NCBI GenBank assembly: GCA_022925895.1
Contig: JAKSYS010000041.1
Span: 62,001 to 126,000 of the forward strand
DNA: 64,000 nt
Origin: Fragilaria crotonensis
Lineage: Eukaryota > Bacillariophyta > Fragilariophyceae > Fragilariales > Fragilariaceae
Reading direction: 5' to 3'
Below are positions 2,997-32,652 of this stretch, in pieces. The notes under the pieces were generated by a model. It saw nothing but the letters and a program-made list of their open reading frames with translations, did no database searches and had not been told where the DNA came from. The stretch's first letter is position 1. Every line of letters starts with the position of its first letter. The translations under genes were made by a program, and so were the position numbers.

Positions 2997-3821
2997 TTAA
3001 TTTTGGAGTTGTGCCATGAGACTTGCCATTTGATCTTGCAAGACTTGTAGCTGCTGAATGGCGGTACTTTTGAGCTCCTTGTCCAGCATTTCGAGATTAC
3101 CCGGGTTGTTGAGTGAAATGTAGTGACCGTCTCCCACGTTGATATCGAAATTGACAGGAGCGTCGCCGGCTCGTATGCGTCTCTTCTTTGTCACAGTAGC
3201 CACCAAGGCGCCGTCTTCGACAGCATCGACTGGAGAGCCATTTTCGGAACTGTAGGGTTGAGAGCATAGCAAATGATTAGTCAAATACTAGGAGTAGTGA
3301 GCATCAGATACGGTTTGTGTCCGTAATCCCATCGAAAGGATCAAGGCTATCGTAGGATGCACTTACAAGATGGCTTCTCCTCGTTTGGCGGTTCGTGTCA
3401 CAGTATTCATGACAGTTGGAGCCTTGAAAGGAGCTGGGGTTGCCAACGCATTCCAGACCCCACGCCTCTTGTTGGATACTGAAACTGGTTCTTGCAGCAA
3501 CTTCAACAAGTCAATTTTGTAGAGCAGATTACACTCCTTGACCGTCATTTCCTTGACAGACTTCCGAATCTTCACAGTAGCATTGACCCAGCATTGTTTC
3601 TGAGCATCCTTGGCTTTTGATGCTTGCGATTTAAGAATAGCCAAACGATTCTCCAAACTTTCTTGTAAATCTTGAAGGACCAGAGTCAAGTGATTCTTAT
3701 CCCAATCAATTGTCGTTGACGTTGAGGGACCTACAATGTCGGTATTGTCCTCACTGAGGACATTCATGATGCAACGCGTGGTACTGGTGGCACCATCACG
3801 ACGACGAGTAGCAGGCGGCAT
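2997..3821 (-). CDS. Borealin-like chromosomal passenger complex subunit
   Basis: Two exons, 3367-3821 and 2997-3249, with a 117-bp intron (donor GTAAGT, acceptor CCCTACAG) that joins in phase to give 235 aa from an ATG. Residues about 45-115 form a basic coiled-coil region with EMTVKECNLLYKIDLLKLL, like the N-terminal Nbl1/Borealin helices that bundle with INCENP and Survivin. The middle has TPAPFKAPTVMNT, then the RRGE/NGSP-type motif created across the splice site (GEAI-F-SENGSPV). The C-terminal part (INVGDGHYISLNN, then a helix ending QMASLMAQLQ) matches the Borealin C-terminal dimerisation domain layout. Expected role: targeting of Aurora-B kinase to centromeres and midzone in the nucleus. 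The match rests on motif order, not on an alignment I could run. Confidence 0.75.
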
Positions 3822-7067: not shown

Positions 7068-8554
7068 TCACAGCTCTTCTGGTGCCAATGGCTTAGTAGG
7101 AGTATCATTCAATGAAAACAATCCCATTTGAGCACTCCATTCGGCATGTTTGCTGGGATCCAACACAATGGCCTTGGCCAAGGCCTCCTTGGCTTCGTCC
7201 AAGCGATTCGTAGCTGTTGCTGGTGATGCAATGGCATTACGTCCATTGTCATTGGACATGGCAAACAACATTTGGGCTCGTAAGAATTGCAAATGTGCTG
7301 TCAAGGATGAGGCACCAGTAGCAGCTGGTGGTGGCTGTGGTGTGCTCAGACAGTAATCAAGATCTGCCAATCCACTGTCAAAATCATGCTCCATATCGAC
7401 ACCATCAGAGGAAGAAGACGAAGAAGTGCTTGATTGTTTTTGTTGCTGTTGTTGTTTCATCAAATGAAGAAGAAGAAGGGAATGATAAATATTGGCCCGT
7501 GCGAGATGCAAATTCCAAACAAGTGGATCCAACAATTTGGTATGACTTGTATACAAGGCACATTGTTCGAGTGCTTGCGATGCCATGGAGGCCTGATTCG
7601 TCAATTCCGTCACAGTAGCAGCAGGATCAGGATCTTTGTTGTTTTTATCACTGTTCAGTTCCTTCACCCCAACCTTTGGAACGAGCTGCTGGAGTGTACG
7701 TTCGGCAAATGCGACGTGATCCCACAATAAGACATGATTGTATTCCATCAATGATGTGTCAAAGTCTAGATTCATTTTGGCCATGGCGTCATGAATGTTG
7801 GGATTGTCTATAGAAGTCCGTTTCAAAAGAGCCTTCTGTTCGCGTTGCATGGTGGCAAAGAGTGCCTTCAAATAGGTTAGTTTTTGTATCAAACTGGATC
7901 GATCGGCAAAGCGTGTGGCTGCAGCATCAACGTGGGTTCGAAATTGCATGGTTGCCTATAGTGATGATGTAATGATCCAAACATGTGTTAGTGGTTGTTG
8001 CAACACAAACACGAACATTGGAAGAGTGAGTGCGTCATGATATCATCATTTGTACTCGGAGCTCGGAGTACCATGGGAAAACATACGACATTACAACTCA
8101 CTTGCAAGGCATTCAAATCATTCGACAGACACATGGCGGCAAGGGTAGTCATGGCCTCTTCGACGAGGATCGGATCTTCACCATGGTGAAGCAAAGTCGA
8201 GTGCAAGAATGGAAAGACACCTGCCGCTCGACAGGCATTCCTTCCAGTAGGATTCCTAATGATGCAGGATTTGATCGCCTTGAGGGCGGCCAACGAAATG
8301 GGTTCTGATACAGCTTGTTCTTGTGCTTCATCCCCAACATCAACAGCACTGCTCTGAACCAGTTGAATAATCAGGTCCAACGCATTGTTAGCTTTTTGTT
8401 TCAAGGATTCGTCCAATCCAAACAATGTTGCAGTCAAACGATTCAACACGAGTTGCACATGGGCTGGATTGCTGGGGGATTCCGCAATCACTTCACGTGC
8501 TCCTTCCTCGAGGAGACGCCACTGGTGCCCAAAATCATTTGTAACAGTCGGCAT
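7068..8554 (-). CDS. ARM-repeat/TPR-like scaffold protein
   Basis: Two exons: 8102-8554 and 7068-7955, with a 146-bp intron (GTGAGT to ACTATAG) in phase 0, giving 446 aa. I chose the ATG at 8554 (MPTVTNDFGHQW) because the upstream in-frame extension starts only at a non-ATG codon. Residues 1-151 are helical with armadillo/HEAT-like helices (ISLAALKAIKSCIIRNPTGR, ACRAAGVFPFLHSTLLHH, LVEEAMTTLAAMCLSNDLNA), typical of NPTGR-type ARM repeats. Exon 2 is helical with a Gln-rich and Ser-rich low-complexity stretch (about residues 335-350) and a C-terminal TPR-like unit (RLDEAKEALAKAIVLDPSKH). I do not recognise an orthologue; a protein-protein scaffold role is inferred. Confidence 0.7.
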
Positions 8555-20750: not shown

Positions 20751-21322
20751 ATGGAGAGAGCATCATGTGAGCATGAAAGAGGATTTTGACAAAGCAACAG
20801 GGATTGAAGCAACAAAAACAAACAAACCATGGTGTGGACCATAAAAAGGTTAAAACTGTGGTAAATTGTGGCGGAAGTTTTGGGTAATCAATCTTATAAT
20901 CACATCAACACGCGAAGATTGTCATTACTGTTCAAACAAATGTCGGGCAGATTTATGTTCATTATCCATGACGAAGTTTTGACTAAGGTTGCTTGAAAAA
21001 TGGCTCCTGTTGAAGCGCTAAAATGAAGATTCCAAAAAGTCAGATTCTGCGACAAAAATGTTGACGTCATTTCCTTGCATTCTAATCGCTTCCTACCCAC
21101 ATACCTGATATTTACAAATTACAAGTACAAGTACTCGTACACGGTACATAGTCGTCGTGGAACGCAGAAAAAAGGAACATGTTGGAAAACGTCAATATAA
21201 TAACCATACAGTCGAAATGTGGGGGTGAAGCCGAACATTTCGGAACCACGAGTGCATCAATCTAAAATTGAAACAAGAACAGCACCGAGAATTTGGCGAT
21301 CATCACACTACCGAATTCTAAA
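20751..21322. other. Flank between MULE A and MULE B
   Basis: No gene. Holds the right copy of the 41-bp inverted pair (21050-21092), an ACAAGTACAAGTACTCGTAC cluster at about 21121-21140, and at 21314-21322 the left copy of the target duplication of MULE B. Confidence 0.55.
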
Positions 21323-21956
21323 TGGGGAAATTACAAAATCACGTATTTTTCAGCCACTTTACAATATAGTACAATGACCCTCTATATACAACTTTACATC
21401 TTACTATATCACCGATTTGCTTTTGGCGTTTACAATATCGCGCGTACATTTGTTCATATATTACTATATCACGCAAGCGTGATATAGTAACACATTTTGT
21501 CGCCAGCCACATCTTCTCTCCACAGATAACATGGTACACCGTATTGTAGCCAATGTCATAAATGAAGAATGGCCAACCTTGCACCACAACCTCTTTCTCC
21601 GTCGTTTTGTTTCAATCACTTGTAGCTCTCAGTCCGATTACGCTAATGTGGTAGTTGTTATCACTCTTTTAGTGTGGTCATTATTTGCGTTGTGCTTCTT
21701 CTGTGTTGAACGTTCAAAATCAAATTGACCATTGGGGGCGATGAGTTTGATTCAACTGAACCTGATACAGTAGTCTACGCACCTTTTGGTATACAGTACC
21801 ATAATGTTCATCTGAAAACTAACGAAGTACATGAACCTAAATCCAGCCCCTTGTTGTCACCCTCATCGAATGCAACATGACGCATATAGGTATAGTCGTG
21901 GCGCACACTTGAACTACCTGCCTATTAGAGACTATTAGAGACTGGCTGGGGCAACT
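21323..21956 (+). repeat. Left TIR of MULE B
   Basis: About 570 bp of strong match to the right TIR, then a weaker inner part ending in ATTAGAGACTGGCTGGGGCA. It contains a small perfect palindrome (TTACTATATCACGC...GCGTGATATAGTAA, about 21462-21491) present in both TIRs. Confidence 0.85.
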
Positions 21957-22049
21957 TTGTTTGTCGTGGCGCCCTCCCGCATAGATGGAACATGAAGTAG
22001 TAGGCAATTTGTCCAAATCGAGCTCAACGAATTTACTTTGTCCACGAAT

Positions 22050-24149
22050 TCATTTCGTCTTAGTACGTCCCTCCTGTTGCTTTGGCGATGCTGGCTCCCT
22101 CCTCCGTCGACCCGACGTCGCATTACCAGCCACTTCTAGGCACGGACTTTCAGATGCATGAACAGGGCCAGCCGCTACAATCTTCTCCTTTGCCGCAGTG
22201 AAAGTGCAAATAAGTGATTTGCACCTTTCCAACCAGTTCCTACGGGCAGCACCTTCACCGTCTGGCCTAGACACAGATGTGCAGTGCCTCAGTGCACGGC
22301 CATCCCAGCTGATGGCAGTTGCATGAGAAAGCTTTATGGCGATGCCGTTGTAATCCGTACCACATTTCCTCTTGCCGTACAAATTTGGAATCAGAAAGTA
22401 CCAGTTTGATCCACAACCCGGCTTCTCCTCTGTCCATAGACTAAAACCCTGTGAAGCGTCATTCACATCGAAGTGTGACGCGTTTCCCAGGTCAACGCTT
22501 ACATCAATTGTGTACCCAACCCGGAGGCCCTTACCATTTCCATCCATCGGAGCTATTGGCACAAGGGACGAATCGGCTTCCACGTTCTGAACAACAGAAA
22601 GGACATCCGGAAAACAGTAGAGGCCAACAGTGGCAAAGGCCTCGACAAAGCTCCTCAGTAACGGTTGAGGCACCTTATCGTTTGCAGCGAACCCGACAGT
22701 TGTCATTCCATCCAACAGGACACGGGTCCCAATTGTGCATTGTACCAACATCCCCGGTATTCTGCCTCGCCGTGCCGCTGCTTCTCCGAAGGCGAGAATT
22801 GTGTTCACCGATCACCTCGATGGAAGCAAGTAGGTCATGCCTGCCCATATGGCAATACCTTGACTCGTGGGAACCATCAAGAATACTTCTCACCATGATA
22901 ATTGACTTCCTCCCAACTGCACCAGAACCACTGGGGGCGATGTCAACAATGATATCAACGAATGGGTGTTCCAACGGGTCAATCGTCCAACAAGTGTCGG
23001 GGATTTTCAGGTGCAAGCACCCCGGGGCGTAATGTCGACCACCCACCCTTGCTGAATTCGAGTTGACAAGGCGGCGATTGTATTCTTGCGCACGGTCAGC
23101 AACTGGCCACGCACCCACATCGTGTCCAGCAATAATGTCTGGTGGCATCCGAGGGCCATCATGATCCGCACATTGCGTTGACACGAACACTTCGCGCAGT
23201 AACCTTGGTGCTGCTGGATAGTACAAAACTCTCCAGGCAGAGACCCCAGCACTTGTAACGGAAGCAAACCTCTTCACGTATCCATCCTCTCCAAATTGTA
23301 AACGGAAGTCCGACCCGGTGGAACCTGCACCGACATGTTCGTCCTTAGTCGAAACCAACTCATGTCCAGAGCAATGCGTGAACCTTCAACACCCTCAGTC
23401 TTCCTGCGCCAGTCCCTTGCACAGTAGAACACTCCCCCCCGGCAGGAAAGCAAGGAGAGTCCTGTACTTGTAGTCATTGGCATCGTCAAGATCCTCAGGT
23501 CCACTTGCAGGCGCCATAATTACATCATCAGGTCCCAGTGCAACAACGTCCGCGTCACCAGTTTTAAAAGCACTACTTATATTTAAGGTCGCAGCTGCCG
23601 TCGGAGTAATCTTTCGGTTACATATCACATCCATGAGAATGAACTCCGAAAGGTACTTCGAAGTGGTGGCATGTTTCATGAAGACCTCATCCAGTGAGCG
23701 CAATTGCGTGATGGCACTGCAATTATCAGTAACTTTATCACCGGCTTTCACCTGCTCCTCGTCAGCAAGCCGAAGGTCCTTACAGATCGAACAATTAAGC
23801 GCATACGATATCCATCTTAAGGGCGTGCCGCATACCTCGACCTCGCCACCAATAGTTCCAGTCAAAGCTGCAGAACGAAACGCAATCGTAAAATCGGAAG
23901 GGAAAAAATATCCCTCCCATCCAGGGGGAAGCACTTCAGTAGCAGTGCCAACACTTTCGGACCTGAAGGGAAGTAATTCCTTCTCGCCCGCTTTCGTGGC
24001 ATCTTGTTACTGAGCCGCTTCTTCGAGGCGGGCACCGCCACCACCCTTGGATTATCCTTCCCGAGGTTTAGAACAGTAGTGCGACAAATTGACGTCCGAC
24101 CTCGCATCTTCAACGCATCATTGTCTTCATTCCGAACCAATCCTGACAT
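22050..24149 (-). CDS. MULE B cargo: 2OG-Fe(II) dioxygenase-like protein, frame broken
   Basis: Starts at ATG 24149 and is read in pieces: 23862-24149, 23395-23934, 23274-23504, 22675-23358 and 22050-22808. Successive pieces overlap where single-base shifts occur, one of them at the C8 run at about 23430-23437. N-terminal part: basic (KKRLSNKMPRKRARRN), then LPPGWEGYFFPSDFTIAFRS, vaguely like an MBD/TAM start, and a Cys pair (LNCSICKD). C-terminal 250 residues: GYTIDVSVDLGNASHFDVND, SLWTEEKPGCGSNWYFLIPN, then YNGIAIKLSHATAISWDGRA and LRHCTSVSR. HFD plus a second His 64 residues after the first and an Arg six further on fit the HxD...H...R iron/2-oxoglutarate site of the double-stranded beta-helix fold. 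The C-terminus is Lys/Arg rich. Substrate unknown; nucleic-acid or chromatin modification is an inference from TET/JBP-type genes carried by transposons elsewhere. Confidence 0.5.
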
Positions 24150-24824
24150 ACTACTGTGAACTCCCAGCTAGATGGCAGGCAGAGACAGCGTATCGTCAGT
24201 CAGCAGCACAACAAACACGCCCGGCTAGATGGCAGGGAACTGATGATGTGCTTCAAGCGGATCGAATAAATGATGAGCAACGAGCGTCCATGCGCGTCGT
24301 CCGTAAGCAGCGCAACAAACACCCCCGGCTAGATGGCAGGGGAAATGATGATGCGCTCCTCAACAACAGACGCAATGCTGATCAGCAAGAAGTGTCAATG
24401 TGTGTGAGAGGCAGCGAAGTGTGATCAAGGAAATGCATTTTCGCGCAATTTTGCATTTGGTTGACACCCTGATGTACTGGCGTAGTATGTATGCATACGT
24501 GGTATAGTATGATGTTGCCATTGCGCGCGAGCAAGACGTCAAAAAAATTCATACATGCCACAGTTCATTAAGTGTTGGGTCTTGCGCGCAAGAATAGACA
24601 CTTAGGGAGTATCTGAACAGATTTGTACTACCGGTAGTAATACAACAGCAATGCGGTTTCCAATATACAGTAAAGTATTGCATAAGGATGCAGTGCCGTT
24701 TATAACAGTTTTTAAGGAGTGATGCCAATGTAGTACAAATACAGCATAGCTACTACTTCTTCATCGTCTTCTCAAAGCATTGTCTCCTTGTTGTCGTCAA
24801 ATACTGATCAGAACACGATAAACC
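24150..24824. promoter_or_regulatory. Bidirectional spacer of MULE B with repeated GCTAGATGGCAGG sites
   Basis: GCTAGATGGCAGG occurs at 24167-24179, 24224-24236 and 24328-24340, the last two preceded by the same ACAAACAC(G/C)CCC(C)G context. The first copy lies 18 bp upstream of the start codon of the minus gene. The rest is AT-rich with no gene. It must carry the start signals of both divergent genes; binding of the sites by the transposase or a host factor is inference. Confidence 0.45.
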
Positions 24825-27800
24825 ATGGCAAAGAAAGCAAAGAAATGCTTTCCAGGCGATCCCCACTTTTCGGGATGGATATCTCCAAGCAGCGAGGATA
24901 TTTCTGCACTACCGCGTAATGCTTGGTTGAGCACGTTGCTGTTGGACTGCATACTGCAGCGATCTGCGCTGCCGGTGGATGTGACATCCACTGACACTTT
25001 TCATATTGGGAGTCTTGGCACCCGAACTTACATCCAGTCATGTAACGATCTGATCACGTATGTACCCAATGGACCCGACGCGGTTCAAGTGGGGAGGGCA
25101 AACCGACAAAAAGTTTCACGCATTCGTGCATCTTTGCAATCTTGTTTCCGATCCCGTCCCGTCAGCAGGCTCCTTATACCGATTGTCTCGGTACACCACT
25201 TTTTTGTGCTTTGCTTGGATTGTTCGTTCTCTAGTCGAGAATTTATTACCATTTGACAATTTACGATTCCCTGCAACGCCGCACTCGTCAAATTAATCCC
25301 GAAGTCGCAACCATCGTAAAGGAAGTCAACTACTTCGTGCGATTCTACATTCTTCAAGAGGAGGAACATGAGCACCTTCGACTGACGGATGAGGCCTTGC
25401 TTAAACGAGTGGAGTATGGAGAATGTCCACGTCAGTTGAACGGATTTGATTGCGGTTTATTTGCAGTTGGCATTGTTTTGCACCTTGTCGAGGGTAAGGT
25501 GATCACGATGGAAACGTTTACTCAACAAGACATCACCGGTTTGCGGGCTAAACTGACGGCCGTGTTTGGGGGAAAGGGCACCGGATTAGGGACAACAAGT
25601 CAGGTTGTCCGCGCCTGCTTCCCAAAACTGAATGGAAGTAGCATCCTTGATACTTTTGGTGTGGAGGTACTGGACGTGCCTGCCGCGGAAGTACACCAAG
25701 TCAGGTCGGCGGGCGGCAGTTCGATTACGGAGGAGGTGGAAACTGCTGTGAACAAGGAAAACACGATGGATACTGCTGGCCATTCGGGAAGTGACGAAGA
25801 CATGGAAACCGCTGTGGAAAAGTGCGCATCGCTACTTGCTGCTACTGATGATGATTCGGCGAATGGCAATGAGGATGCGCTTAGTTATCACACTTGCGAG
25901 GACAGCGAGAGCAGTAGTGAGCTTAAGGATGATAATGTTACAGATTTTCGAACAGGAAATGAAGGGAGCAATCTGGCAAAGCCAGTGCCCGTCAAGTCTC
26001 TTGACGTATTGTTCTATGACATAATGAGGGACGCAAAGGTGGATTGCTTTGCGACGTTGGAAGAGGTGATGCCATTAATTGAAACGTATGAGATTCGGTC
26101 AGGAAATCACTTGCGGGTGCAACGCTCACTCCGAAATCAATTTAAGCAGTTCCAATGTCGGGAGCATGTCAACTGCCCATTCCAAGTTTTAATATCGAGG
26201 CGGCGATCTGACGGCAGGTTTGGCGTGTCGAAGATTAAGGGTTTGCATGGCGACGTGCGACGTGCTCCGCTCGCGGCTGATGGGCGGCATTGGAAGAAGC
26301 GACATCCGAACCTGCATGGAATTATTGGTCAGGTGGTTCAAACAAAGGAAGGAACACCGACACCGGCAGACGTTCAGAAGACGGCTGCAACACGTTCTGG
26401 TCTGATTGTGCCGTACATGGCTGCGTACCGAGCACTGACCCATGAAACAAGCGCTCAAAAGGCTGCAACGTTGAAAAACTTCGAGATGATTATCCCTTTT
26501 TTGGAAGCGTTGAAGAGCTGTAACCCTGATTCCATTATTGGATGCGAGAGGGATAAGGACATGAGGGTCGTTGAGCTGCATGTTTTCCCCGGGATCATGA
26601 ACCGAGCGCTGAAGTTTGTGCGCCCGGTACTGTCTTTGGATGCCGCCCACCTGAAGAGTGTGTTCAAAGGCACTCTGTATGTTGCATCAGTTCTGACGGG
26701 TAGCAATGATATCTTCCCAATTGGATTCATGATCTTGGCAGGCAATGAGGATGGTGCTTTGTGGCAAAAGATGCTTCGTTATCTCAAGAAAGCGTGCCCA
26801 ATCATTGGAGAGCAGGTGTACGGAAATATTGACGTGGATGGGGTCGCGAGGCCCCCATTTCTGTTCATTTCTGACCGAGACAAGGGTCTGAAACCGGCGT
26901 TGAAAGCAGTGTTCCCTGATAAATTTGAGATGAGCTGCGCAAAACACATCGAGGGCAACGTGGCACAGAAGTTTGGCAAGCAGTGTTCCAAATATGTATT
27001 GGCAATTGCAAAAACATTTTTGACAAGAAATTCTAGTCGCTTATTTGAGGAGGTACGCAGGATTAAGCCGGAAGCTGCAACATATCTGGATGAAATCACA
27101 GACAACGATCGTGTTCTGTGGCGGACCACTCAGTGGTACTCATCTTCTACCGCCATTGTCATTCCACCAAGGTATGGAATTGTGACGTCAAACACAAGTG
27201 AGGCGGTGAACAATATGTTCTCTGAAGCTAGAGACGTGGGGTGGTTAGAGTGTGTGAACAAACTCATCGACATCATGTCGACAAGGACATATGTGTGCAG
27301 AAAGAAGTACAGGGAACGTGACGGGTCCGAAGTGGTGCCTAGAGTTGCGCAGATAATGAAGGTTAGGTGGGATGCAGCTGCTAGCATGACGGTTGTCGAG
27401 TTGGAAAGTGGATGCGGTGACTTTAAGGTCGTGGAACCATCATCACTTGCAGAGAGAATACTGTACGACCGTCAGCAGGATACCTCGACCAAAACCGCAT
27501 CAACATAGTAAAGCCAGACTTTCAATGGTGCAGCTGCGGTGTCTGGCAAGACTTCTTGTACCCCTGTTGACATGCGTGTGCAGTCTTCAGGAAATGGAAA
27601 GAAAAAGACTTCACCTATGTCATCGGCAATTTGGTGCATCCCTACTACAGTTTCGAGTTTGTACAAAACAGCCACGTTCAGGAACAACGTCTTCCCCGTC
27701 TGCTTGGAAACACTCAAATATGATGGCGTGACGAAGGAACCAGCATTGCCAAAGCGACAGGCGGGACGCCCGAAGACAAAACGAATTCGCAGACGAAGTA

Positions 27801-27940
27801 AATTTGTCGAATTGAAGCAGTCGCCTATAACATGTTCCATCTGTGGGAAAAGGGGTCACAACCGACAAAGTTGTGTTCCGTCTGTGCAGAAAGGTGGTGC
27901 CAAGTCCAATGAACTTGCCCCAGTCTCTAATAGTGTCTAA
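24825..27940 (+). CDS. Ulp1-like SUMO-protease/MULE transposase fusion (element B)
   Basis: Starts at ATG 24825. The first 143 residues are the N-terminal half of a C48 (Ulp1) protease: W-LSTLLLDCIL, LITYVPNGPD, and the catalytic His in VSVHHFFVLCLDCSF. A frame slip at about 25252 (one T short in ATTTGAC would join FITI to TIYDSL) leads to a 752-codon ORF with the catalytic Asp (IYDS), oxyanion Gln and nucleophile Cys in CPRQLNGFDCGLFAVGIVLH. An acidic linker follows, then a C/H DNA-binding region (CREHVNCPFQVL), and the MULE core with PVLSLDAAHLKS, LFISDRDKGL and KHIEGNV as DDE candidates. The SWIM finger (QWCSCGVWQDFLYPC...H) is in a shifted frame and broken by a TGA at 27568 where element C has TGG. 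The tail has an AT-hook-like GRPKTKR and a CSICGKRGHNRQSC zinc knuckle. Not functional as written. Confidence 0.75.
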
Positions 27941-28538
27941 TAGATAATAGGTAATGACAATTTTAGTGTGCATAACAACTATATGCGTCATGTTGCATTC
28001 GATGAGGGTGACGACAAGGGGCTGGATTTAGGTTCATGTACTTTGTTAGTTTTCAGATGAACATTATGGTACTGTATACCAAAAGGTGCGTAGACTACTG
28101 TATCAGGTTCAGTTGACTCAAATGCTTCGCCCCCAATGGTCAATTTGAATTTGAACGTTCAACACAGAAGAAGCACAACACAAATAATGACCACACTAAA
28201 AGAGTGATAACAACTACCACATTAGCGCAATCAGACTGAGAGCTACAAGTGATTGAAACAAAACGACGGAGAAAGAGGTTGTGGTGCAAGGTTGGCCATT
28301 CCTCATTTATGACATTGGCTACAATACGGTGTACCATGTTATCTGTGGAGAGAAGATGTGGCTGGCGACAAAATGTGTTACTATATCACGTTTGCGTGAT
28401 ATAGTAATATATGAACAAATGTATGTGTGATATTGTAAACGCCAAAAGCAAATTGGTGATAAGATGTAAAGTTGTATATAGAGGGTCATTGTACTATATT
28501 GTAAAGTGGCTGAAAAATACGTGATTTTGTAATTTCAC
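27911..28538 (-). repeat. Right TIR of MULE B
   Basis: Inverted copy of 21323-21956. The same landmarks appear in reverse order. The inner border overlaps the last codons of the transposase frame (TTGCCCCAGTCTCTAATAG). Confidence 0.85.
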
Positions 28539-28595
28539 AATTCTAAAGATATGTTAACACGGAGATGTCACTCAGTCAGAGGTACTATAGCCCCA

Positions 28596-29777
28596 CTATT
28601 GTCGTTCTTTCTCGATCTTATCTTGGACTTCGGAGTTGTACAGCTCAAATGAGAATCTCTTGGTCAGAGCTGGATGTGTGAAGTTGAATTGTTGGAAAAC
28701 GCCTTTTTCGCCGTGCTTCGCAATTCGTTCTGGCGTTTTAAGGCTATACCGTCGAACCTTTGAGGCGTTGCCCAAGAATGAAGCCCACCTCACAAATGTC
28801 GACACAGAGCCACCAACAAGCTCCTTCTGTGCGGACATGAGGAAGCAAAAGCTTTGTTCCCCATTGCTGGTGTTCACAAATCGTGCATCTAGCCCCTCTT
28901 CTCGCATTCGATCCACGTAGCGCTGACCGAAGGATGCAAATAGACTCAAAACTGCAATTTTGTCTCCTGGTCGGAGATGTTTAAACAGCTCGCTCAAAGC
29001 TTTGTTAGGGCTGATCTCCTCATAACCCGTCGCCAATGCTTTTTCCTTCGGCACCTCGACTTCGAATCCTCGCGCGTGGAACACTGTTTCATTCGCCTGT
29101 GCTCTAGGACCGCAACATTTAGGATTCTTGGTATCAAATTCAAACAAGGACCGATATCGATCGAAAAACCGATCTACCATTGGAAAAGAATTGAAGGCGT
29201 ATGTGTACATCATAGGGAGAGTGATCCTGGGATTACCTTGTATTTTCGGTACGAGGTTGCCGGCATTTTTCACGGTGTTCGCAAACTCTTCAATGGTCCT
29301 TTCCCAATGATTTGTGGTTGTGTTGCGCCCGAAAAAGAAATGATCGTGGCCGAGCCAGTCCTGTTGTTGCTTCCGCCGGTATTGTAATTCTGGAGTGTTT
29401 CCTCTAGTAAAGTCCATCGTTCGAAGTTTTGGGAAGCATGTTTTGATACTGTTGATAGATGCTTGCCACGTTTCTGTGTACGAGTGCCTTAAAACTATAT
29501 TGACTGTAATGTTGTAGTCATCCTCAAGCATCCACTTCGATGCGTAACCAAATGCAATGAAGCTCAGATAATTTGCCATCTCAAAATCAAGTTGTATGAC
29601 AATTGTTGGCGGATGGGTGGCATTCTCAAAAAGGGCAACATCGTTATCAATGCATGCGGTTGGATCCCCTAGTAATTTCATATGCAAGACCGCATAACCA
29701 AGAACGAAACAGTGGATGCATATCATGCACACAGCGATCACAACTGTCCTATCGAATCGCATGTAGGGCATGATCAT
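28596..29777 (-). CDS. Type II membrane protein, putative Golgi glycosyltransferase-like
   Basis: Intact 393-aa ORF from ATG 29777. Residues 11-33 form a signal anchor (VVIAVCMICIHCFVLGYAVL), and the lumenal domain has several N-X-S/T sites. It contains PTIVIQLDFEMANYLSFIAF, where a family-specific start of an alpha/beta fold is likely, and a C-terminal segment LRPGDKIAVLSLFASFGQRY, then NGEQSFCFLMSAQKELVGG and STFVRWASFLGNASKVRRY. That Ser-rich loop followed by an S-x-F-x-x-WA-x-x-LG helix resembles the nucleotide-sugar end of fucosyltransferase-like (GT-B) enzymes in algae. The similarity is weak and the function is a suggestion only. MULE B is inserted 57 bp past its stop codon. Confidence 0.6.
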   Translation of the reverse strand: MIMPYMRFDRTVVIAVCMICIHCFVLGYAVLHMKLLGDPTACIDNDVALFENATHPPTIVIQLDFEMANYLSFIAFGYASKWMLEDDYNITVNIVLRHSYTETWQASINSIKTCFPKLRTMDFTRGNTPELQYRRKQQQDWLGHDHFFFGRNTTTNHWERTIEEFANTVKNAGNLVPKIQGNPRITLPMMYTYAFNSFPMVDRFFDRYRSLFEFDTKNPKCCGPRAQANETVFHARGFEVEVPKEKALATGYEEISPNKALSELFKHLRPGDKIAVLSLFASFGQRYVDRMREEGLDARFVNTSNGEQSFCFLMSAQKELVGGSVSTFVRWASFLGNASKVRRYSLKTPERIAKHGEKGVFQQFNFTHPALTKRFSFELYNSEVQDKIEKERQ

Positions 29778-30989: not shown

Positions 30990-32652
30990 CGAACCTGTTG
31001 CACGTGACGGGCGTCAATGGAAGAAACGACGAGCTGGGAAACTGGACGCGATGATTGTTCAGGTTGTTTGAACAAAAAAGGACAAACCAACTCCAGCTGA
31101 TGTCATAAAGACAGCTGCTAGTCTGGATGGTGAGGTAATCACTTACATGCCTGCAAATTGCGCTCTCAACAATCAATCTCATGCCCAGTTTAGGCAGAGT
31201 TCAAAGAATTTTGAACTACTGCCAGGGTACCTTGAGGCAATGAAACAGTTGAACCCCAACTCTGTCATTGGGTATTCACATGATAGCGAGAGATCCATTA
31301 AACATGTACATTTTTTCCCTCGTTTCATGAATACAGCATTAAAGTTTGAAAGACCAGTTATATCTCTGGATGTAGCTTATTTAAAGTGTAGCTACAAAGG
31401 GACAATGTACGTGGCTTTGGTCCTTTCTGGAACAAGAAATGAGGTGTACAGCATCAGATTCATGATCTCCTCTGGGAATGAAGATGGCGAGACTTGGACA
31501 ACAGTGTCGAAATACTTGAAGGAGGCGTGCCCAATCATCTTTGAGCAGGGTTTTGGCAATGAGCGTGGTGACGACGGAGAAATTTCAGCATCCGTTTCTA
31601 TTTGTTTCCGACCGCGACAAGGGTCTGAAAGCGGCCCTACGAAATGTGTTTCCAAGAAACAAGGAAACGAGCTGTGCAAAACATATTGAAGCAAATGTAT
31701 GCCAGAAGTTTGGTCAACAATGTGCTCAATATGTGATGGCAATTGCAAAAACTTTCTCTTTCAGATGCTCCAATCACTTGATTGATCAAGTGAGGACTAT
31801 CAAGCCGCATGCTAAAGATCTTATTGAAAATGTTGACAATGATACCCTTTGGAGAAGTACATCGTGGCTAGATGAGCAGAATCCAGTCCCACCACGTTAT
31901 GGGATTGTACCTCCAACACAAGCAAATGTGTGAACAACATGTTTGCACAGGCGCGCACTGTGGGATGGTGGCTGGAGGCGGTAGAAAGCATTGTGGATGT
32001 TATGTTGGCAAGAATTTCAACCTGCCAATCTAAGCACATTGATCGGGAGCCGGGAGAGGTTGTGCCTTGTGTGGCACAGATTCTGAAAAGGCGTTGGGAT
32101 GCTGCGGCATCCATCACAGTTGTTGAGTTGGTGCATGAGTGTGGAGATTGCAAAGTTGTGGAGCCTTCGACAGTACAAGACTCCGACAAAGACCCTCACT
32201 TGCCCAGCATGCCATACAATGCAGGGCAACCAAACACTGTCTACATTGTTAAACCAGAGTTGCAGTGGTGCACTTGTGGCATTTGGCAAGATGCTCCGTA
32301 CCCATGTTGGCATTGTTGTGCTATCTTTTGGAAATGGAAGGAAAAGGATTTTGGCTATAACCTACAGAATTTGGTGCATCCATACTACAAGTTTGAGTGC
32401 ATACAACAAATGTACGAAAACAAAATCTTTCTAGCGTGCATTGATAATGTCAAATACGATGGCGTGACAATGCCTCCTGCTGTAACAAAGCGACAGCCTG
32501 GGCGCCCACGAAGCAAACGACTTTGTTGTCGACTCGACAAAGTGAGCTTCTTGATCCAGAGGAATCACCGATTAAATGTTCAGATTGTGGCGAATGAGGA
32601 CACAATAAAAGAACATGCAAGAACCAAATTACTAGGACTTCGTAATAAGTGA
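30990..32652 (+). pseudogene. MULE transposase C, 5'-truncated relative of element B
   Basis: Aligns by eye to the transposase half of element B from DGRQWKKR onward, but the Ulp1 half is absent. A TGA at about 31068 replaces the Gln of QVVQTK. Frames then shift at about 31590 and 31930. Preserved landmarks: PVISLDVAYLKCSYKG, LFVSDRDKGLKAALRNVFP, KHIEANVCQKFG, an intact SWIM finger CTCGIWQDAPYPCWHCC, GRPRSKR, and a degraded C-terminal knuckle. Codon-level divergence from B is large, so this is a different subfamily, not a recent copy. Confidence 0.8.

Follow-up and report, generated by a model that had tools for sequence, protein, structure and literature searches.

A Mutator-like element (MULE) of about 7.2 kb, carrying two head-to-head genes, was found in the diatom Fragilaria crotonensis. 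It spans exactly positions 21323-28538 of the window, a stretch of 64,000 nucleotides of contig JAKSYS010000041.1. The plus-strand gene codes for a transposase with a Ulp1 protease domain, and the minus-strand gene for a predicted TET/JBP-like oxygenase. Terminal inverted repeats (TIRs) were aligned in two pairs (21321-21403 with 28460-28542, 83 nt, 98%; 21407-21889 with 27979-28461, 483 nt, 97%), and the borders of the element are exact because AATTCTAAA adjoins both ends. A first-pass annotation, made by a model from the letters alone, had placed a MULE here with TIRs, a 9-bp duplication and two head-to-head frames around a repeat-bearing spacer; all of these were recovered. It had also called the element intact-ended, which holds for the termini. 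However, the genes are broken: compared with three sister copies, the window copy carried 13 private frameshifting insertions or deletions (8 + 5), showing that this copy is dead. The features are listed in order along the window.

21314..21322: left target-site duplication AATTCTAAA, 9 bp, with its second copy at the right end
21323..21889, plus: left TIR, about 0.56 kb, 97-98% complementary to the right one
21951..22100, minus: 3' end of the oxygenase gene repeating the AT-hook-like/zinc-knuckle C-terminal tail of the transposase (P0002 residues 975-1021, 52%, E 1.7e-8)
22050..24149, minus: decayed TET/JBP-like oxygenase gene, in two frames (tblastn with the relatives P0001 and P0005)
22275..22289, minus: RHCTS, carrying the distal iron-binding His (alignment and motif counts)
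22467..22475, minus: HFD, the HxD part of the iron-binding triad (alignment and motif counts)
24150..24824: divergent spacer and putative shared promoter, with GCTAGATGGCAGG repeats at 24166-24341
24825..27940, plus: decayed gene of the Ulp1-MULE transposase, starting with residue 1 at 24825 and changing frame at about 25250
25164..25555 (approximate), plus: Ulp1/peptidase C48 domain, PF02902, mapped from P0002 residues 114-244
26627..26950, plus: MULE DDE transposase domain, PF10551, E 3.1e-8 in the window's own frame
27520..27585 (approximate), plus: SWIM zinc finger, PF04434 in the intact copy, interrupted by TGA in the window
27739..27877, plus: AT-hook-like GRPKTKRIRRR and CCHC zinc knuckle (conserved alignment columns)
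27979..28538, minus: right TIR, from the inverted-repeat comparison with the left end
28539..28547: right target-site duplication AATTCTAAA, 9 bp

Termini and relatives of the element

When the F. crotonensis genome (62.1 Mb, 881 contigs) was searched, TIR matches of 94-96% identity were obtained in C22, C28, C40 (two elements, C40a and C40b), C165, C318 and C873. The termini of the seven other elements examined were GGGGAAATTACAA or nearly so. Perfect 9-bp duplications flanked C40a (CTTTAAAAT), C40b (TTATTTTTT) and C65 (TTCTTATTA). C40a is the same insertion as C22, and their identical flanks show that the two are probably haplotypes of one insertion, so that some copy counts are doubled. The duplication of C873 was imperfect, the C28 element met the contig end, and no 9-bp target duplication was present at the flanks of C165. 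TIRs with a duplication of about 9 bp, the mark of a MULE, were thus found at the window and three other insertions. The TIRs enclosed both genes in the window and, judged from coordinates, in C22/C40a, C165 and C873, placing a TET gene and a transposase inside one TIR-bounded element, as in the TET+ transposons discussed below.

Each TIR held a palindrome-like stretch of about 40 nt (TTACTATATCACG...CGTGATATAGTAA, at 21456-21495 and 28373-28412), which could be a candidate hairpin or protein-binding site. Three elements of about 1.08 kb (C42:95661-96740, C230:40981-42053 and C87:36274-37353) had versions of the same TIR of about 150 bp, and are probably non-autonomous derivatives moved in trans. 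Further TIR matches occurred in C23, C520, C614 and at C131:219453. At C23:170076-171490, a diverged TIR (83%) accompanied a badly broken TET copy with no transposase found nearby, possibly a deletion derivative. Directly outside the right TIR, an open frame of 393 codons (28596-29777, minus) is apparently a host gene. About 2.5 kb downstream of the element, a second and more decayed Ulp1-MULE relative (43% identity, seven TGA and one TAA) was observed at window 30991-32178 (C361:92991-94178).

The transposase and the oxygenase

In tblastn with the intact sister protein P0002, window positions 24825-25250 matched at 97% and 25250-27937 at 88%; a further frame shift was found near the SWIM region. 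The sister copy in C873 encoded an uninterrupted transposase of 1041 residues. Pfam matches in the intact sister copy were PF02902 (peptidase C48/Ulp1, 8.4e-8), PF10551 (MULE DDE, 4.4e-7), PF00872 (2.2e-5) and PF04434 (SWIM, 5.3e-6), bearing out the Ulp1-transposase fusion of the first-pass annotation. The window's own frame matched PF10551 and PF00872 (7.3e-5), both over the cut-off, and was assigned to the MULE DDE transposases. When 18 relatives from databases were aligned, one of them identical to the C873 protein, residues H125, D148, Q204 and C210 proved nearly invariant; we take these to be the catalytic H-D-Q-C residues of Ulp1/peptidase C48, and together with the PF02902 match they identify the domain. 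The acids D607, D685/D687 and E794, whose roles we assume from general knowledge of the family, were also kept, as were the SWIM cysteines, the GRPKTKRIRRR stretch, presumably AT-hook-like, and the CCHC stretch, which we take to be a zinc knuckle and for which Pfam knuckle matches were below the cut-off.

The oxygenase start codon was placed by homology at 24149-24147 and the last stop at 22050, with the window reading split across two frames (24146-22098, minus). When an AlphaFold model of the homologue P0006 was compared with known structures, TET2, NgTET1, CMD1 and CcTET were the top matches, above all others. The fold predicted for this homologue confirmed that the minus gene encodes a TET/JBP-like double-stranded beta-helix (DSBH) oxygenase; the dioxygenase-like cargo gene proposed earlier can thus be named more precisely, and the DSBH fold by which that proposal was to be checked is of the TET type in the model. 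The iron triad was almost fully kept among the non-gap rows of an alignment of 26 homologues (first H in 18/19, D in 16/18, distal H in 17/17). In 43 motif rows obtained from 56 entries (30 loci, 26 proteins), the residue at +5 from the first His was Asp in every case, and that at +13 was either Trp (38 rows) or Phe (5 rows); since the motif demanded the first His, only the counts at +2, +5 and +13 are free. In CMD1 the +5 residue is D350, which contacts cytosine N4 (equivalents D234 in NgTET1 and N1387 in TET2), and the +13 residue is W358, which occupies the place of the 2-oxoglutarate arginine, according to the accessible part of PMC7854593. That arginine (TET2 R1896, NgTET1 R289, CMD1 R410) stands six before the aromatic base-stacking residue (same source). 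The corresponding position appeared to be Asn in 17/17 non-gap rows of the 26, an assignment made from spacing to the following aromatic residue and not from structural alignment. Because of this Asn and the CMD1-like Trp, 2-oxoglutarate as co-substrate is in question. Methylpyrimidine oxidation is the activity we would predict from the modelled fold.

The apparent absence of the arginine could also mean that the TET fold is catalytically dead or re-purposed, serving as a DNA-binding accessory factor in target recognition or the transposition complex rather than as an oxidase. In the same direction, the oxygenase gene of the window's family ends in a copy of the zinc-knuckle tail of the transposase. 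However, the iron triad is almost fully kept, the base-contacting Asp stands in all 43 motif rows, and CMD1 is active even though its aligned Arg is unused for the co-substrate (PMC7854593, accessible part). We consider loss of catalysis unlikely. The tail repeat itself corresponds to the 43-nt inverted repeat I3 by the left TIR, and most simply reflects an earlier copying of right-end sequence into the left end that reached past the present TIR.

The same Asn, with Trp or Phe at the position of CMD1 W358, leads to a further reading in which the element would carry two erasers, one directed at SUMO and the other at methylated DNA, and the oxygenase would belong to an algal, CMD1-like TET branch, maybe working without 2-oxoglutarate and writing a bulky base such as glyceryl-methylcytosine on transposon DNA rather than just demethylating it. 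We put this forward tentatively, with the odds against it.

Several matches and search results were set aside. A match of the oxygenase to arenavirus GP1 was rejected as weak (E 0.012 with a single sequence, 0.33 with a profile), as were LydB and other weak Pfam matches. In viral contigs, 10 stretches fitted the single pattern used, none of them a relative. The BFVD library gave one unnamed viral model at E 4e-4, with the remaining 45 rows above 0.5. No match to KDZ was found, in a search whose control was likewise without a match.

Pairing, selection and other carriers

The genome search with the transposase gave 75 matches from 60 of 225 candidates, and that with the oxygenase 159 matches, of which 150 are listed (150 of 328 candidates scored); all copy counts are lower bounds, and the 150 oxygenase rows include haplotype duplicates. 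In the protein searches, no more than 7,990 candidates were scored per search. At least 20 of 49 transposase clusters had an oxygenase match within 8 kb. The two genes stood head-to-head in at least 18 clusters and in tandem in 2, and 16 of the 18 head-to-head pairs were spaced by 2,445-2,692 bp.

In a tree of the 30 best of the 150 genome rows and 15 of the 21 proteins P0004-P0024, with no MULE-II-linked copies among them, the oxygenases of paired elements formed one clade (100/99) together with P0004-P0008 and one unassigned fragment (C401:2536), beside which no transposase was found. Plavaka-linked rows landed in three places of this tree. The transposases of paired elements likewise formed one clade, with P0031-P0033 (100/100), in a tree of 25 of 30 loci and 24 of the 25 proteins P0031-P0055; the row labelled C40b_TET- in that tree is really the oxygenase-bearing C40a element. 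The clades of both genes included metagenome relatives. P0006 and P0031 are probably neighbours in another organism, a linkage drawn solely from their same source and from ENA contigs that both measure 8142 bases. In the comparison of the two Fragilaria subfamilies, at near-saturated dS, the oxygenase had a dN/dS (NG86) of 0.14 and the transposase one of 0.12, showing purifying selection on both genes; dN/dS was not computable in 12/15 oxygenase pairs and 4/6 transposase pairs, where dS was saturated.

The oxygenase family had other carriers as well. Among the 150 rows listed, at least 70 had a Plavaka transposase in convergent orientation no more than 6 kb away, at least 18 were divergent with a Ulp1-MULE and at least 18 convergent with a second MULE-like group (MULE-II), while 3 pairs had other orientations and 41 rows had no assigned carrier. 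Orientation was nearly fixed in each class (Plavaka 70/72, Ulp1-MULE 18/19, MULE-II 18/18 of the rows listed). The three main arrangements covered 106/150 listed rows, compared with a chance-neighbourhood estimate of 4-5%, which is rough and covers the Ulp1-MULE and Plavaka lists only. Four of the 41 unassigned rows (C592, C579, C346 and C313) had, by eye, a convergent PF10551 match within 5 kb. The Plavaka assignment comes from PF18759 (6.3e-8 at L071:5203-6636); the L069 type, without a Pfam match, was 23-24% identical to two L071 pieces (E 3e-21 and 6e-18). MULE-II was identified from sub-threshold Pfam matches (PF10551, E 0.0073; SWIM, E 0.043). Among the 150 rows scored, at least three transposon lineages of F. 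crotonensis carry the gene family and may have spread it. It has probably moved from one transposon superfamily to another, serving each as a ready-made anti-silencing module.

It is very improbable that the oxygenase is a host TET-like gene caught in the manner of a Pack-MULE and merely hitch-hiking. Gene capture is frequent in MULEs (PMC6446971, accessible part) and many copies in this genome are broken. However, the gene belongs to one old clade under purifying selection, its geometry with the transposase is near-constant, and the same family stands beside Plavaka and MULE-II transposases; neither dN/dS near 1 among intact copies nor absence from most active copies was shown. A one-time host capture, which the first-pass annotation had named as an outcome that would undo its proposal, was accordingly not borne out for this old, constrained part of the MULE clade.

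Several further arrangements were observed. Convergent TET and Plavaka elements (L069, L071, L031-L038) were the most numerous TET carriers among the rows listed. In L070 (C873:57500-66500), a TET gene lay in tandem with a Ulp1 frame of 306 residues, with 38-nt inverted repeats at 3427-3464 and 8232-8269. In L029 and L030, short minisatellite-like repeats coding CKNPRYLF-like stretches adjoined TET genes.

CpG decay and the proposed anti-silencing role

Private C-to-T changes in the window copy were found at 29 of 656 CpG positions compared with 13 of 2,226 other C/G positions (odds ratio 7.9, p 1.6e-10), and 22 of the 29 lay in the transposase half. Deamination of methyl-CpG would leave this pattern. 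Overall CpG content relative to expectation was alike in the element (0.90) and the window (0.89). The genome gave 13 C5-methyltransferase matches; each exceeded the Pfam cut-off, and some are fragments of a single gene.

Our preferred explanation, to which we assign a probability of about 0.62, is that this TIR-bounded diatom MULE pairs a Ulp1-carrying transposase with a divergent TET/JBP-like, Fe-dependent oxygenase that would together act as an anti-silencing module. The host would methylate CpG on these elements and repress them. The oxygenase would modify the methylated cytosines, to 5-hydroxymethylcytosine (5hmC) or another product, and Ulp1 would remove the small ubiquitin-like modifier SUMO from proteins that take part in silencing or repair, or else from the transposase. 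As a result, the shared spacer would stay active and the TIRs cleavable. Action on SUMO and on modified bases had been suggested by the first-pass annotation, and we keep it as a proposal from domain content and predicted fold.

A different substrate, with JBP-like hydroxylation of thymine, 6-methyladenine (6mA) or RNA in place of 5-methylcytosine, seems to us quite unlikely. TET/JBP members do act on thymine (JBP) and 6mA (CcTET) in the accessible part of PMC12730594, and NgTET1 can use thymine, with 5hmC undetected in Naegleria (PMC12344493). However, these proteins retain the +5 Asp, which in NgTET1 and CMD1 touches cytosine N4, and both the CpG mutation excess of the window copy and the C5-methyltransferase matches point to methylated cytosine.

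Several observations weigh against the anti-silencing explanation. The CpG excess was measured, and its comparison drawn, inside transposon copies only. The Asn at the 2-oxoglutarate position has been described above. The mean pLDDT of the P0006 model was only 64.8, and the model is of a homologue rather than of the window protein; the window's own open frame of 251 residues, folded alone, gave a poor model (pLDDT 44.2) that was discarded. Nothing in the genome matched Pfam Tet_JBP (PF12851) at E <= 1, and neither the minus gene nor its 26 homologues had a significant Pfam match (best E among the homologues 0.05, to unrelated families). Tet_JBP is a detection profile and not a mechanistic trait; therefore the protein was filed as TET/JBP-like by fold, outside the profile. 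Recent pairs had dN/dS of 0.34 and 0.31 (two pairs, NG86), and all dN/dS values are lowered because poorly aligned stretches were left out. Finally, 29 of the 49 Ulp1-MULE clusters were without an oxygenase match inside 8 kb and 2 were in tandem, indicating that this kind of MULE can do without the oxygenase. The clusters lacking it were mostly more distant relatives, and C318 (97%) hits its contig end before the expected oxygenase place. The expectation that both genes recur between the TIRs thus held for the sister copies, which keep the minus gene, but not for distant Ulp1-MULEs.

As functional precedents, the TET+ transposons of fungi and the VANC proteins of plants, some with Ulp1, come closest (accessible parts of PMC12730594 and PMC13317346). 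Fungal TET+ DNA transposons (Kojima 2025, PMC12730594) likewise carry a TET/JBP gene in many copies, are common to several superfamilies including Plavaka, and have a proposed role against methylation silencing. In contrast to them, the diatom proteins escape the Tet_JBP profile. In the accessible main text of that paper, MuDR is named just for VANDAL and SET-bearing Phytophthora elements, and the words MULE, diatom and Ulp1 are absent. Plant VANDAL/Kaonashi (KIU) MULEs also encode a silencing-lifting protein and include Ulp1; however, they are non-TIR elements with three genes and have Ulp1 in a VANC-type gene, whereas here it lies in the transposase (PMC13317346, accessible part). VANC is not described there as an oxygenase. 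Ginger1 and Mutator elements of hydra, lancelet and plants are likewise DDE transposons with a Ulp1 domain, with no oxygenase gene mentioned in the accessible part of PMC2836005. CMD1 of Chlamydomonas shares the TET-like DSBH, HxD...H, the +5 Asp, the +13 Trp and, to all appearance, the lack of a usable 2-oxoglutarate Arg, but it is a cellular algal gene with vitamin C established as co-substrate by assay, compared with residue spacing alone here (PMC7854593, accessible part). MULE-Diatoms, group 37 (Dupeyron et al. 2019, PMC6446971, accessible part), are diatom MULEs with SWIM as well; they have one ORF and TIRs of 123-124 bp, whereas the present element has TIRs of about 0.56 kb, Ulp1 and an oxygenase gene.

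In the open-licence PMC literature, which lacks most subscription papers, no report was found of TET genes carried by MULEs, by transposons of diatoms, or next to Ulp1 in one element. Because Ulp1-bearing Mutator elements and TET-bearing transposons are each known (PMC2836005 and PMC12730594, accessible parts), the novelty lies in their combination and in the hosts, a MULE and a diatom. The claim that the combination was undescribed stood within that literature, but its parts are singly known, and the oxygenase family is common to Plavaka and other MULE-like elements.

These results widen the range of TET enzymes encoded by transposons beyond fungi, to a diatom and to Mutator elements, and show one element that has retained a TET gene and a SUMO protease side by side. 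They also bring to light many uncharacterised TET-like enzymes, which escape the standard Pfam profile and may use unusual co-substrates. With these elements, a DNA-methylation arms race in diatoms becomes testable in a culturable alga. In a culture study of F. crotonensis, the class 'Mobilome: prophages, transposons' made up about 25% of the genes that went up at high pH (PMC9732472, accessible part), and those data are a ready set for these elements.

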